From: Microcaldota archaeon
GTDB lineage: Archaea; Micrarchaeota; Micrarchaeia; Micrarchaeales; CABMGC01
Direction of reading: 5' to 3'
Length of the DNA: 57,351 nucleotides
Assembly: GCA_021790305.1 (NCBI GenBank)
Contig: JAJYED010000004.1
Span: 1-57,351 of the forward strand
The translations under genes were made by a program, and so were the position numbers. Under the pieces are notes generated by a model. That model did not search any database. It was not told the origin of the DNA and worked only from the letters and a program-made list of their open reading frames with translations. Below are positions 33,703 through 57,347 of this stretch, piece by piece (the first letter of the stretch is position 1; each line of letters starts with the position of its first letter).

Positions 33703-33803
33703 TGGTGCAGGGAGAGAGATTTGTTCAGTGTTATTGAACTCTCGTAGGCCTAAGCCAACAGATCTTGAGTCTGTCGCGTTTGACCAGGCTCCGCCATCCC
33801 TGC
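33703..33803 (-). tRNA. tRNA-Leu (CAA) with 13-nt insertion/intron in the T-loop; 3' CCA encoded
   Basis: minus strand GCAGGGA TG GCGGAGC..GC G ACAGA CTCAAGA TCTGT ..long variable arm.. GAGAG TTCAATAACACTGAACAAAT CTCTC TCCCTGC ACCA. Confidence 0.88.
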
Positions 33804-33914: not shown

Positions 33915-35354
33915 ATGAGAGTGAAGAAGATTGATGAGTATAGGTTCAGGATAGAGAAAGACGCCTCTAGCGGCATGAATACAGGCGTGGTAATGTACTC
34001 CTCTGAAAAGCTTATGGCCAATCTTAAGAATGATAGGACGATGCAGCAGGCCGCAAATGCGGCAACGCTCCCTGGAATACGGGGTAATGTGATGGTTATG
34101 CCTGACGGGCATGAGGGGTATGGTTTTCCCGTAGGAGGCGTAGCTGGTTTCGACGCTGATGAAGGGATAATCTCTCCTGGGGCGATAGGATTTGACATAA
34201 ACTGCGGGATACGTGTCATAAGAACCAATCTTGAAGAATCAGATATAAGGAAGAATATGAAAAAACTCTCTGATGAGATATTCCTGAATGTGCCTAGCGG
34301 GCTTGACAGCAGGCTCAAAATAGGTTTTGAGCCTTCGGATTTAGAAAGAGTGGCTCAGGAAGGTGCAGCATATCTTGTAAGCAAGGGCTTTGGAGTCAGT
34401 GAGGATATAGAGCATATGGAGGAGAAGGGCTGCATGGAAGGGGCGGATTTCTCAAAGGTCAGCCAGCGTGCAAAATCAAGAGGAAAGAATCAGCTTGGCA
34501 CTCTCGGAGCCGGCAATCACTTCCTTGAGATACAGAAAATTGATAAGATCTTCGACAAGAAACTTGCAAAGGCTTATGGAGTCTATGAAGGACAGATAGT
34601 GATCATGGTGCATACAGGCTCACGGGGTTTCGGCCACCAGATATGCAGCGATTATCTTCGCACACTTGCGGAATATCAGGCAAGAAAGGGCATACAGATA
34701 GTTGATCCGGAGCTGAGCTACGCGCATGTTAAGAGCAAAGAGGCAGAGGACTACCTTAAGGCTATGAAGTGCGGGGTGAACTTCGCATTTGCAAACAGGG
34801 AGATGATAACGCACATAATAAGAGAGAGCTTTGAGAAGGTTATGGGAAGGAGTGCTGAGGAACTGGGAATGAGCTTGCTGTACGATCTTTCCCATAATAT
34901 AGCAAAGCTTGAGGAGCACAAGGTTGAGGGTAAAAAGGAGAGAGTATATGTGCATAGGAAGGGAGCTACAAGGGCTTTTGCAAAAGGAAGGAAGGAGATA
35001 CCTGAAGCTTATAGGGATTACGGGCAGCCTGTGCTCATACCCGGAAGCATGGGAACAGCCAGCTACATACTTGCAGGGGGAGAAGGAGCGATGGAGGAGA
35101 CTTTCGGTTCTGCGTGCCATGGTGCAGGAAGGGTGATGTCAAGACACCAGGCACTGCGCGAGATAGGAGCGGAGAAGACAATGGCCTCTATGAAGAGCAA
35201 GGATATAGAGCTCAGGGTGCATGACAGGAGGCTGGTAAGCGAGGAATCGGAGTGGGTATACAAGGACATAGATGAGGTAATAAGAGTGGTGGAAGGGGCT
35301 GGGCTTGCACTGCCGGTATCAAGGAATGTGCCCATAGCTGTGATAAAAGGCTGA
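33915..35354 (+). CDS. rtcB: RNA-splicing ligase RtcB
   Basis: MPDGHEGYGFPVGGVAGFD, GAIGFDINCGIRV, LGTLGAGNHFLEIQ, VHTGSRGFGHQI, SACHGAGRVMSR. Confidence 0.95.
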   Translation: MRVKKIDEYRFRIEKDASSGMNTGVVMYSSEKLMANLKNDRTMQQAANAATLPGIRGNVMVMPDGHEGYGFPVGGVAGFDADEGIISPGAIGFDINCGIRVIRTNLEESDIRKNMKKLSDEIFLNVPSGLDSRLKIGFEPSDLERVAQEGAAYLVSKGFGVSEDIEHMEEKGCMEGADFSKVSQRAKSRGKNQLGTLGAGNHFLEIQKIDKIFDKKLAKAYGVYEGQIVIMVHTGSRGFGHQICSDYLRTLAEYQARKGIQIVDPELSYAHVKSKEAEDYLKAMKCGVNFAFANREMITHIIRESFEKVMGRSAEELGMSLLYDLSHNIAKLEEHKVEGKKERVYVHRKGATRAFAKGRKEIPEAYRDYGQPVLIPGSMGTASYILAGGEGAMEETFGSACHGAGRVMSRHQALREIGAEKTMASMKSKDIELRVHDRRLVSEESEWVYKDIDEVIRVVEGAGLALPVSRNVPIAVIKG

Positions 35355-35451
35355 TACGCCACTCTTGAACGAAAAATTATGAATCTGAGAAGAGCTTTTT
35401 GAGTAAAAAAGTGCCAGGACATTGTTAAATGATAGTAAATGCTGTACTATG

Positions 35452-35471
35452 AATGAGATAAAGGTCTCATT
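35452..35471. terminator. possible hairpin between convergent genes
   Basis: AATGAGA-TAAAGG-TCTCATT, perfect 7-bp arms. Confidence 0.35.
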
Positions 35472-35997
35472 TAGATAATTTATACCTCTTAATTGTTTTA
35501 AAACGTCCTGTTTGCCTCTCTTCAACAATGTAGATATAATTGATTTTATGTATTCTTTTTATTTTCTTTGAATTCACTTCGTTAAATGCGTTTTTGAACT
35601 TGTTCTTTTGTATCTTATCTCCGACTGCGATATGTGGAATCCATAATTTTGTGGTATAATCAGTTGAAAATTTCTTACTATATAATTTAAAAAGATGATT
35701 TATTGCTTTATTCAACCTAATTAAGTCGCTTGTTCTTTTTATCTTATAGTATATCCTTCTTTTTGACCAATTAGTTAAACCGACAATCTCTATTTTGATG
35801 GGTTTAGTTTCAGAACTTATTTTCTTTAGTTCTTTTTTTATTTCGTTTAGATTTTTTATTTTTCCGATCTGGAAAGTTATGTGCGGATAATTATCTGAAG
35901 CTCCAGTTATTCCATTATATTTTCTTTCAAAGTCCTTGAAAAGTTTCATAAGTTTTTTATCGTCGTTTACAATTGATAAGATGTAGATTTTTGACAT
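35467..35997 (-). CDS. 2H phosphoesterase / 2'-5' RNA ligase-like protein
   Basis: two H-x motifs: PHITF and PHIAV; fold-typical length. Confidence 0.75.
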   Translation of the reverse strand: MSKIYILSIVNDDKKLMKLFKDFERKYNGITGASDNYPHITFQIGKIKNLNEIKKELKKISSETKPIKIEIVGLTNWSKRRIYYKIKRTSDLIRLNKAINHLFKLYSKKFSTDYTTKLWIPHIAVGDKIQKNKFKNAFNEVNSKKIKRIHKINYIYIVEERQTGRFKTIKRYKLSK

Positions 35998-36049
35998 TTT
36001 ATTCCCTCTTTGGTCCACCTATAAGATTACTTTTGCCTTCTGTCTCTAC

Positions 36050-36871
36050 TTATATCCCTGCAGCACCGGCCACGTTTTTGATACGTTTCTTGTATACATT
36101 GTATTTCGGAAGGTCTATGAATGAAGAGATCATATCGAGAAGTTTTTCTGCGCTGTCGAACTCTTTCTTCATTGCAAGATGCCTTGCAGCATAGAATACC
36201 GCATTCAGCTCCCTTTCACGAAGCAATTCGTTTATCTTCTTCTCTGCATCCTTTTCGTTGGTCTCTGTTGCGAGTGCCATCTTCGCATATTTGAATGCAA
36301 GAGTGGTGTTCATCTGCTGGTCCAGTATTATCGATGCGTGCGCATACCTCTTCAACTTTATCTCAGCCATCGCCTTTATGAAGAGTGAATTCTCGTCAGA
36401 GGCTTTTGAAAGTTCGAGGATTTCTATGCTTTTGTGAAGGCACTCCCTGTTTCTGGATTCGAGATGCATGGCATTATACTTGTTCCTTTTAGGCTCGTCA
36501 TTCCTGTTGTCTGCATTTCTCTCCATGAATGCCTTCATGTTATAGTCCACATCCAGATAGGTTATATCTGAAAGTGATCTGTAGAGAGAGGCAAGAGCGT
36601 ATAGCACTTTTGGATCTGCATTTGTGCAGAGCTGTTCTGCATTCTCAATGGCTTCAAGATACGCCCCTTTAGCTATGGATTGGCTTATGCCACCGAGCTT
36701 GGATGCGACTACAGGATCAAGGATGTTCTTCTCTCCAGGCACCACTATTGATTCGCATAGCGGGCATATGGAATAAGGACCTTCTGCGCACATGTATTCT
36801 GTTGAACAGTAGGCGCACTTTGCCTTTGATTCTGGAAGCTTGAATGCCTTTGCATTATGATACAGGCCCAT
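36050..36871 (-). CDS. zinc-ribbon protein with TPR-like helical repeats
   Basis: CAYC...CPLC N-terminal ribbon, alpha-helical remainder. Confidence 0.6.
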   Translation of the reverse strand: MGLYHNAKAFKLPESKAKCAYCSTEYMCAEGPYSICPLCESIVVPGEKNILDPVVASKLGGISQSIAKGAYLEAIENAEQLCTNADPKVLYALASLYRSLSDITYLDVDYNMKAFMERNADNRNDEPKRNKYNAMHLESRNRECLHKSIEILELSKASDENSLFIKAMAEIKLKRYAHASIILDQQMNTTLAFKYAKMALATETNEKDAEKKINELLRERELNAVFYAARHLAMKKEFDSAEKLLDMISSFIDLPKYNVYKKRIKNVAGAAGI

Positions 36872-36904
36872 GATTAACTTGTATCATAAAACATTTTATA
36901 TATG

Positions 36905-37564
36905 TCAGCGTTTTTTGAGTACAGCGAATAGGTGCATCCTGTCGAAAGGCATAAGGTCCATTGACTCCACAACCTCGAATGTTCCGGATACCGCCTTTAG
37001 GAATTCCTTGTACACCACTTTCGGATTCTTTGATACGCTGATGCTCTGTGACTTTATTGCAACATATGCATAGCTTCCTTTTCCTAGGAACCTGCTGTTC
37101 TCGATAAGCATCTGCGCCTGATCCCTTGCGGCTATATCCTGATACAGCACGTCTGCAAGGCCCACTTCTTCAGCATACCTCTCAACGTTCCTTGCATTTT
37201 CCAGTATAGGCAGCATATTCTCCCGCTTTTCGCAGACCTTTATCAGATCTCGTACGCTTCTCTCAGATACCTCTACGCAGTAGAGCTCTCCTTCCATTGA
37301 TATTATGTCGCTTATATGGCTGCATGTTGTGCCTGTCGCTGCTCCCAGGTAAAGAACCTTGCTCCCCTTCTTTATCTGCATGTGCCTCATTCCTTTCAGA
37401 ATGGCAGCGGCAAGCTTTGATCTGTAGGGATTCCATAGCCTGTACTCTTTGCCATCCGCTTTAACAAGCTCTTCTCCGTATACCTTCTCTCCCTGTACAA
37501 GATTGACAGTTGCAAGCTTTCCATTCACCCTGAACACCCCGTCGAATACTTCCTTTGCAGTCAT
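36905..37564 (-). CDS. flpA: fibrillarin-like rRNA/tRNA 2'-O-methyltransferase
   Basis: EYRLWNPYRSKLAAAI, VLYLGAATGTTCSHISDII, VLYQDIAARDQAQML. Confidence 0.93.
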   Translation of the reverse strand: MTAKEVFDGVFRVNGKLATVNLVQGEKVYGEELVKADGKEYRLWNPYRSKLAAAILKGMRHMQIKKGSKVLYLGAATGTTCSHISDIISMEGELYCVEVSERSVRDLIKVCEKRENMLPILENARNVERYAEEVGLADVLYQDIAARDQAQMLIENSRFLGKGSYAYVAIKSQSISVSKNPKVVYKEFLKAVSGTFEVVESMDLMPFDRMHLFAVLKKR

Positions 37565-45195: not shown

Positions 45196-45935
45196 TAGAG
45201 CTATACAAAGGAGTATACGTAGTAGAAGGTATGCCGGTATTATTCATAAAGAAGCTGAATGCGCTTGTATGTTCAGACCTTCACCTCGGATATGAGGGAG
45301 TGATGGCGGATAGAGGCATCTTCCTTCCCAAGACAAATCTTGCTAAGATAAAGGAGACATTGAAGAAGAGCACGGAGATAACAGGAGCAAAGAAGCTGAT
45401 AATAGACGGCGATATAAAGAACGAATTTTCCAAAGTACATATGGAGGAGTTCAATGAATTCAGGGAGCTTGTGTCTTTCCTTAAAGAGCTCGATATCGAA
45501 GAGCTGCACCTTGTAAAAGGCAACCATGATAACTTCATAGACAGGTTCGAAAGACCTTTCGGGATAAAGATATATAGGCAGGAATTTCTTCTTAAAGACG
45601 TTTTGTTCTTCCACGGCGAGGAACTACCTGCTTCAGATGAAGGCAAGCTGCTTGTGATGGGACATCTGCATCCTGCTGTCGGCATATTCAACAAATTAGG
45701 GGTTAAGGAGAAGGTGAAGTGCTTCCTTTATGGCAAAATGGCAGATAAGAGAGATATAATCATACTGCCTGCCATGAACTACTTCTCAGAAGGAATAGAG
45801 GTCAACATAAGCAATATTGACGATACGCCGGTATTCAGGCGTATGCTGAACCTCATGGACATGAATGTTGTAGGCATAGATTACACTGAAGCTGTGAAAT
45901 TCGGCAGTGTAAGGGAACTTGCAGATATTTTATAA
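45192..45935 (+). CDS. calcineurin-like metallophosphoesterase (Lhr-associated)
   Basis: CSDLHLGYEG, IDGDIKNEF, VKGNHDNF, HGEELP, MGHLHPA. Confidence 0.88.
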   Translation: MIELYKGVYVVEGMPVLFIKKLNALVCSDLHLGYEGVMADRGIFLPKTNLAKIKETLKKSTEITGAKKLIIDGDIKNEFSKVHMEEFNEFRELVSFLKELDIEELHLVKGNHDNFIDRFERPFGIKIYRQEFLLKDVLFFHGEELPASDEGKLLVMGHLHPAVGIFNKLGVKEKVKCFLYGKMADKRDIIILPAMNYFSEGIEVNISNIDDTPVFRRMLNLMDMNVVGIDYTEAVKFGSVRELADIL

Positions 45936-45958
45936 TTTAAACAGGGATATTGTTACGC

Positions 45959-46031
45959 AGTCCCGTCATCTAGTGGCCAAGGATAGCGGGCTTTGGACCC
46001 GCTTACGCCAGTTCGAATCTGGCCGGGACTA
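45959..46031 (+). tRNA. tRNA-Gln (TTG)
   Basis: AGTCCCG / GCGGG CTTTGGA CCCGC / GCCAG TTCGAAT CTGGC / CGGGACT A. Confidence 0.94.
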
Positions 46032-46086
46032 TCAAGTGATGAGACGAGGTATTTCTGAATGGTGATGAAAGAGAGTCTCTGACCAA
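46032..46086 (+). ncRNA. box C/D sRNA immediately 3' of tRNA-Gln
   Basis: C GTGATGA (46036-46042), guide GACGAGGTATTT, D' CTGA (46055-46058), C' GTGATGA (46062-46068), guide AAGAGAGTCT, D CTGA (46079-46082). Confidence 0.85.
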
Positions 46087-46162: not shown

Positions 46163-47614
46163 ATGGTTGAAAAGCCGAAGAACCTTGAGGGCATAAATGT
46201 TCGTAAGGACGAGAATTTCTCTGAGTGGTATACTCAGGTAGTGCTAAAGGCAGGATTGGCAGATTATGGGCCTGTACAGGGTACGATGGCAATACGTCCT
46301 ACAGCATATGAGATATGGGAGATGATACAGGAGGCTTTTAACAGAATGATAAAGAGTACGGGCCATAAGAATGCGTATTTCCCGATGCTCATACCAGAGT
46401 CATTCCTTACAAAAGAGGCAGAGCACTTCGAGGGCTTCACTCCTGAGGTGTTCTGGGTTACTCATGGCGGCAATAACAAGCTTGGAGAACAGCTTGCAGT
46501 AAGGCCTACTTCCGAGACGATAATATACTCCTTTTATTCAAAGTGGATAAGGAGCTGGAGAGACCTTCCTCTGCTGCTGAACCAGTGGTGCAATGTCCTT
46601 AGGGCTGAGATAAAGGCAACAAAACCTTTCCTGAGAACTAGCGAATTCCTTTGGCAGGAAGGACACACTGCACATGCCACTAAAGAGGAGGCAGATAAGG
46701 AAGTTAGGATGATACTTGACTTCTATAAGGAGATTGCAGAACAGTACCTTGCTATACCTGTCCTTCAGGGAATGAAATCGGAGAGGGAGAAATTTGCAGG
46801 AGCTCTTTACACTACAACCATAGAGGCGCTGATGCCTGATGGCAAAGCAGTACAGTCAGGAACATCGCATAATCTGGGACAGCACTTCGCCAAGGCGTTT
46901 GGCATAGAGTTCCTTGATGAGCAGGGGCAGAAGCAGTTCGTCTGGCAGACCTCATGGGGGATATCAACAAGGCTTCTTGGAGCTTTGATAATGCTGCATG
47001 GAGATGATAAAGGACTGGTCATACCTCCGAAGGTTGCACCTGTGCAGCTGATGATAGTGCCGATATACAAGGACATTGAGAAGGCAGAAGTTCTGAAAGC
47101 TTCCAGGAGCATAATGGAGAGTCTCAGAAGCGCAGGCTTCAGGGTCGATATAGATGAGAGGGAGAATAGGACTCCTGGATGGAAGTTCAACGAGCATGAG
47201 ACAAAAGGGGTGCCGATGAGGATAGAGATAGGACCAAAGGACATTGCATCTGGATCTGTAGTATTGGTAAGGAGGAACACTTCGGAAAAGAGATCAGTAA
47301 AAATATCCGAACTGAACAACTTAGTAAAGGAAGAGATAGTTAAGATGCAGAATGAGATGTTTGAAAAGGCAAAGAAGTTTCTTGACCAGAATATAAGAGT
47401 TGCAGAAAATTATGATGAATTCAAGGAGATACTCAATTCAAAGAAGGGTTTCATAAAAGCAGGATGGTGCGGCAAGGACTCCTGCGAAGATAAGATCAAG
47501 GAGGAAACTGGAGCTACAAGCAGACTGATACCTTTTGATCATGAGAATACAAAGAGCTGTGTTTATTGCGGAGAGAAGGCTAAGAGCTACGCTTACTTTG
47601 CACTCTCTTATTGA
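46163..47614 (+). CDS. proS: prolyl-tRNA synthetase
   Basis: class II motifs (VRPTSETIIYSFYSKWIRSWRDLPLLLNQW; RTSEFLWQEGHTAH), C-terminal zinc-type region and terminal Tyr. Confidence 0.95.
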   Translation: MVEKPKNLEGINVRKDENFSEWYTQVVLKAGLADYGPVQGTMAIRPTAYEIWEMIQEAFNRMIKSTGHKNAYFPMLIPESFLTKEAEHFEGFTPEVFWVTHGGNNKLGEQLAVRPTSETIIYSFYSKWIRSWRDLPLLLNQWCNVLRAEIKATKPFLRTSEFLWQEGHTAHATKEEADKEVRMILDFYKEIAEQYLAIPVLQGMKSEREKFAGALYTTTIEALMPDGKAVQSGTSHNLGQHFAKAFGIEFLDEQGQKQFVWQTSWGISTRLLGALIMLHGDDKGLVIPPKVAPVQLMIVPIYKDIEKAEVLKASRSIMESLRSAGFRVDIDERENRTPGWKFNEHETKGVPMRIEIGPKDIASGSVVLVRRNTSEKRSVKISELNNLVKEEIVKMQNEMFEKAKKFLDQNIRVAENYDEFKEILNSKKGFIKAGWCGKDSCEDKIKEETGATSRLIPFDHENTKSCVYCGEKAKSYAYFALSY

Positions 47615-49127: not shown

Positions 49128-49267
49128 GGGGTTGTTGCGTAACTTGGCAGCGCGGCAGGCTCCAGATGTTTATAATCCAATGAGCCTTTCGGCGATGATG
49201 AGGATCTGGAAGTACCGAATAAATATGAAGTAACCTGCAAGTCGGGGTTCAAATCCCCGCAACCCCA
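49128..49267 (+). tRNA. tRNA-Trp (CCA) with ~67-nt intron at 37/38 (49166-49232)
   Basis: GGGGTTG / GCAGG CTCCAG[intron]A CCTGC / CGGGG TTCAAAT CCCCG / CAACCCC A. Confidence 0.92.
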
Positions 49268-57136: not shown

Positions 57137-57228
57137 GATAATACAGAGCGCAACTGGTTGCCTCGTTCTTACAGCAATTACACTGTTCTTCGCGATAAAG
57201 GATTTGAGATGGCGCGAGGCATGAGTTT
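57135..57228 (+). repeat. direct repeat copy 2 (internally deleted remnant of permease 3' end)
   Basis: 57135-57159 = 55803-55827; 57164-57228 = 55877-55941; 49 bp of copy 1 replaced by 4 bp. Confidence 0.92.
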
Positions 57229-57347
57229 GGCGGGGGGGAGATTTGAACACCCGATCTCTAGATTTCTAAGATCATAGCCGAAAGGCTCATTACTCATCAT
57301 GCTATGCATATGAGTCTAGCGCTCTAACCAGGCTGAGCTACCCCGCC
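57228..57347 (-). tRNA. tRNA-Met (CAT; elongator or Ile2 not resolved) with ~45-nt intron at 37/38 (57264-57308)
   Basis: minus strand GGCGGGG TA GCTCAGCCTGGTTAGAGC G CTAGA CTCATA[intron]A TCTAG AGATC GGGTG TTCAAAT CTCCC CCCCGCC A. Confidence 0.9.

Follow-up and report, generated by a model that had tools for sequence, protein, structure and literature searches.

Archaeal tRNA genes with a box C/D guide RNA attached at the 3' side have been published for three archaea (PMC3491384; PMC7994747), in keeping with the remark in the original prediction that tRNA-sRNA dicistrons occur in a few members of this domain. The unit of Nanoarchaeum equitans, tRNA-Val(TAC)-sRNA8, is supported by RNA-seq (Randau 2012, PMC3491384), and the tRNA-Ser-sRNA of Ignicoccus hospitalis and the tRNA-Pro-sRNA of Thermoproteus tenax are dicistronic according to Tripp et al. 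2017, as cited in PMC7994747. Outside the archaea, plants have dicistronic genes in which a tRNA is followed by a C/D snoRNA and RNase Z carries out the processing (Kruszka 2003, as cited in PMC3491384). Here we describe a locus of Candidatus Micrarchaeota at which a tRNA-Gln(UUG) and a C/D box sRNA, together covering positions 45959-46082, very probably form a single dicistronic gene whose sRNA would guide 23S rRNA methylation. The elements themselves, their conservation and their complementarity to the targets are demonstrated by comparison of sequences. Because three archaeal tRNA-C/D sRNA dicistrons have been published, the arrangement is not of a new kind; its novelty lies in the lineage and the tRNA involved, in the two sites predicted as targets and in the range of promoter states that can be compared, and a literature search on box sRNAs of Micrarchaeota returned nothing.

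The closest counterpart is the N. equitans unit, in which, again in an archaeon with a small genome, a C/D sRNA adjoins the 3' end of a tRNA and RNase Z is proposed to make the sRNA 5' end, but there the tRNA is tRNA-Val and RNA-seq is available, whereas the Micrarchaeota unit has tRNA-Gln. The I. hospitalis and T. tenax units share the position directly 3' of a tRNA; they come from thermophiles, with other tRNAs and in other phyla, whereas the present sRNA family can be compared in its fused, spaced and reversed forms inside a single order. The plant genes also place the C/D RNA 3' of the tRNA, although they are eukaryotic. The locus extends tRNA-guide RNA dicistrons to Micrarchaeota.

The window, by which we mean the whole 57,351-nucleotide stretch of DNA that was analysed, comes from a 742-kb, 37-contig bin, a Candidatus Micrarchaeota MAG, and the ProRS that it encodes is 83-94% identical to those of its nearest named relatives, likewise Candidatus Micrarchaeota MAGs. 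The fibrillarin gene lies within the window about 8 kb from the sRNA, and searches of the whole genome show that Nop5 and tRNase Z (C37:4641-5516; TIGR02651, 321 bits) are also encoded in the bin. RtcB, a 2'-5' RNA ligase-like protein and fibrillarin are clustered at 33915-37564 of the window, an RNA-processing neighbourhood.

Table 1 Features of the tRNA-Gln-sRNA locus and the fibrillarin gene in the window.
Feature	Position	Strand	Basis
Putative TATA element attttataatttaa, ~19-32 nt 5' of mature tRNA	45927..45940	+	Sequence; ATTTTAT in 6/6 genomes of the genus
tRNA-Gln (anticodon TTG)	45959..46031	+	ARAGORN; Rfam RF00005, 57.9 bits
Linker TCAA, 4 nt, inferred sRNA 5' leader after tRNase Z cleavage	46032..46035	+	Sequence
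C box GTGATGA	46036..46042	+	Sequence; TGATGA invariant in 35 aligned homologues
D' guide GACGAGGTATTT, 12 nt	46043..46054	+	Sequence; 23S pairing
D' box CTGA	46055..46058	+	Sequence; homologue alignment
D'-C' spacer ATG, 3 nt	46059..46061	+	Sequence
C' box GTGATGA	46062..46068	+	Sequence; homologue alignment
D guide AAGAGAGTCT, 10 nt	46069..46078	+	Sequence; 23S pairing
D box CTGA	46079..46082	+	Sequence; homologue alignment
Fibrillarin, C/D sRNP 2'-O-methyltransferase	36905..37564	-	Pfam PF01269, E 2.8e-76; whole-genome search

Both ARAGORN and Rfam RF00005 end the tRNA at 46031, as the original prediction had it; this base is the discriminator A, and CCA is not encoded. The C/D box sRNA spans 46036-46082 in the order C-D'-C'-D with all four boxes perfect, and the predicted TCAA linker, C, D', C' and D boxes, guide lengths and 3-nt spacer were all recovered base for base. 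The prediction had also read the two genes as an apparent dicistron, in which tRNase Z processing of the tRNA 3' end would at once create the sRNA 5' end, and had seen no place for a separate promoter. Support for the dicistron comes from the gap between tRNA and C box, which is 3-4 nt in all six genomes of the genus (g1) and is kept while the sequence further downstream diverges.

The second claim, that there is no separate promoter, gains support from homologues that stand alone. In their 62 distinct upstream sequences, positions -30 to -24 relative to the C box form an AT-rich block that resembles a TATA element, where A+T content is 73-94% (84-94% at -29 to -25, with a peak of 94% at -27), and words of a strict TATA-like list were found in 24 of them, compared with 11 for shuffles. 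In the fused genes this stretch is filled by tRNA sequence, and none of the five distinct fused upstream sequences contains a TATA-like word; upstream of the tRNA, a TATA-like ATTTTAT is conserved in all six genomes. Plant tRNA-snoRNA genes have their RNA polymerase III promoter inside the tRNA. Given that the tRNA body occupies the place of the promoter block, release of the sRNA 5' end by tRNase Z appears the likely route, and one tRNA-sRNA transcript in which tRNase Z would make the sRNA 5' end is the simplest reading. The published archaeal tRNA-sRNA dicistrons have drawn the same tRNase Z proposal (PMC7994747; PMC3491384).

A genuine C/D sRNA could also be made apart from the tRNA transcript, either from a weak or non-canonical promoter of its own inside the tRNA gene or as part of a longer transcript, with the proximity to tRNA-Gln being incidental. 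Many archaeal C/D sRNAs do lack a recognisable promoter and are matured by nuclease trimming to the edges of the sRNP (PMC7994747), and in relatives the linkage to tRNA-Gln is often loose, ranging from tens of nt to kilobases. However, the replacement of the TATA-like block by the tRNA and the short gap retained in six genomes amid diverging downstream sequence both speak against this origin, which we consider improbable. A longer transcript would in any case yield an identical sRNA 5' end, since tRNase Z must cut at 46031 for the tRNA to mature.

For the tRNA-linked gene we infer that the two RNAs are transcribed together, that tRNase Z then releases the sRNA, and that an sRNP assembles on it and methylates the targets. 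A single transcript would start upstream of tRNA-Gln, and tRNase Z would cut it after discriminator A46031, a cut that would mature the tRNA 3' end and at the same time set the sRNA 5' end 4 nt ahead of the C box. L7Ae, Nop5 and fibrillarin would then bind the C/D and C'/D' motifs, the D and D' guides would pair with two 23S domain IV sites 19 nt apart, and fibrillarin would 2'-O-methylate U1921 through the D guide and A1940 through the D' guide.

No rRNA was found in the bin, and the targets were therefore read from the same-genus genomes G002, G004 and G005, whose 23S rRNA reads CUCUGACUCUCUUAAGGUAGCGUAAUACCUCGUC at the target region. The D' guide pairs with AAUACCUCGUC over 11 contiguous bp (11 of its 12 bases) and the D guide with GACUCUCUU over 9 contiguous bp (9 of its 10 bases); the base next to each D' or D box is unpaired, and the N+5 position pairs A-U at both sites. 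In E. coli numbering, obtained by alignment with E. coli rrlB, the predicted 2'-O-methylations fall on A1940 (D' guide) and U1921 (D guide), the latter in the 3' strand of helix 69, which spans 1906-1924. The target strings given in the original prediction are exact complements of the guides and agree with the 23S rRNA except at the box-adjacent base, its N+5 targets A and U correspond to A1940 and U1921, and the rRNA complementarity that it had named as a check is present in the same genus.

Shuffled guides matched equally well in none of 2000 trials for the D' guide and in 1.8% of trials for the D guide, and in G004 neither 23S nor 16S rRNA holds a further guide match of at least 7 bp. On these comparisons the sRNA most likely guides methylation of two nearby 23S spots, and the prediction is that two particular rRNA positions at the interface between the subunits are methylated. 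The accessible text of Dennis et al. 2015 (PMC4644070) describes the region of helices 68-71 in 23S domain IV as a hotspot of archaeal C/D-guided methylation, where double-guide sRNAs serving closely spaced sites are a known design, and in that text we did not find one sRNA serving exactly U1921 and A1940 elsewhere. A search of the guides against the 31 tRNA loci of the bin gave a sole 8-bp match, between the D guide and position 398 of locus L176, which was rejected as a target because it falls outside the tRNA of that locus.

When 60 relatives were searched at the DNA level, the sRNA region was recovered separately from the tRNA, at 82-98% identity, from many genera belonging to the same family and order. 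All 35 aligned homologues keep TGATGA, GAGGTATTTCTGA, TGATGA and CTGA, and GAGGTATTT of the D' guide is invariant among them, whereas there is variation in the D'-C' spacer and on either flank. A model using sequence alone, derived from these homologues, matched 120 of the 165 genomes of the order (E <=5e-9 in 118); this count partly recovers the training set, as the model was trained on members of the order, and its independent part is the genomes outside that training. In a phylum sample the model matched 164 of 303 genomes, and most of the matches beyond the order were weak. The sRNA is genuine and ancient.

In relatives with a mutated helix-69 target, the D guide is altered as well. Among genomes with both sequences available, the GAGAGTC core of the D guide is kept in 17 of the 20 with the usual helix-69 site GACUCUCUU and missing from 3, whereas none of four lineages in which the 3' strand of helix 69 is altered keeps it (Fisher 0.003, a value that ignores shared ancestry). 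The four are G008, G020, G022 and genus g2, for which the rRNA is from G032 and the sRNA from G006, so that in this one case both come from within one genus. The altered D guide of G022 fits the opposite strand of helix 69, over 9 bp. The D' guide, like its target, hardly varies among the relatives. Several lines of evidence support the original assignment of the element as a C/D box sRNA: its boxes are conserved across the order, permutation supports its two adjacent 23S targets, complementarity of the D guide is lost in genomes with a mutated target, and fibrillarin, Nop5 and tRNase Z are all encoded.

The terminal stem that would flank the C and D boxes is absent in the tRNA-Gln-fused genus. 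In homologues it is often weak or absent, and weakly above a re-pairing control; relative to a re-pairing control, the stretches that follow the C box and precede the D box show a slight excess of complementarity to each other in two registers (p 0.037 and 0.004). The missing stem would suit a decayed or non-functional sRNA remnant left 3' of the tRNA, yet four perfect boxes and guide cores kept across genus and order, with varying spacers and flanks, make such a remnant very unlikely.

The element also stands out against the composition of the window. In a scan allowing <=2 mismatches in C, D' and C', the tRNA-Gln-linked sRNA was the sole match in the window, and no C/D element appeared on either strand of 40 windows simulated with a first-order Markov model. 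Across the 742-kb bin the strict C-D'-C' pattern has two occurrences and a reversed control pattern has none. Single boxes, being short and A+T-rich, are common, but a chance motif match near a tRNA can be dismissed as next to impossible, being already refuted by the conservation, with the empty simulations and the two adjacent 23S targets also against it. The predicted fold of the tRNA-sRNA unit has no greater stability than those of shuffled sequences (z -0.38), so thermodynamics is uninformative either way. Within about 200 nt around the other tRNAs of the bin, no further tRNA-linked C/D sRNAs were found. The second strict match in the bin, at G000:C29:67229-67257 on the minus strand (L161), has a D box and ends 4 nt ahead of an ATG that, on visual inspection, appears to open a histone-like frame; neither 16S nor 23S rRNA has a 7-bp match to its guides.

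Several other arrangements occur in the order. Outside the genus, an upstream tRNA-Gln, where present in the stretch examined, is always on the same strand and 4 to ~2300 nt away, and the largest tRNA-Gln-sRNA distance in relatives is 13.6 kb. Genus g24 alone covers gaps of 4 nt (G094), 17 nt (G093), 21 nt (G028) and 1.1-2.3 kb (G095 and G099). The order of the two genes is reversed in genus g42 (G056, G057, G123 and G124; L112, L134, L250 and L251): the sRNA comes first, ~9-12 nt ahead of a tRNA-Arg(CCT) that contains an intron, and both members checked for a flanking stem have one of ~7 bp. The g24 and g42 arrangements may be independent fusions or may reflect losses of an ancestral close linkage. 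The series from stand-alone genes with a promoter-like block, through a short gap, to fused genes lacking the block suggests how a dicistron of this type can arise. We tentatively propose, as a possibility somewhat short of even, that one family of helix-69 guide sRNAs has been captured repeatedly by tRNA units within one order, 3' of tRNA-Gln in g1 and one g24 genome and 5' of tRNA-Arg(CCT) in g42. If so, guide production would have been coupled to tRNA supply, with the stand-alone promoter lost each time.

A few further observations concern the relatives and the rest of the window. In the 4-nt fusion of G094 (L229/L253), the C' box is changed to GTGAAGA. G003 has a second tRNA-Gln on a 534-base sequence (G003:C17, L142) with a cut-off sRNA 241 nt downstream, perhaps through contamination of that bin. 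Three long tRNA matches in the window, at 33706-33803, 49128-49267 and 57228-57347, were found by Rfam and not by ARAGORN, and probably contain introns. The sRNA is followed by the ProRS gene at 46163-47614 on the plus strand. In the congener G003 (L148) a convergent ProRS gene, its product 47% identical to that of the window, is found at the same place, and several matches of the window ProRS outside the genus are to Bacteroidota, at 48-50%; a replacement of the ProRS gene is possible.
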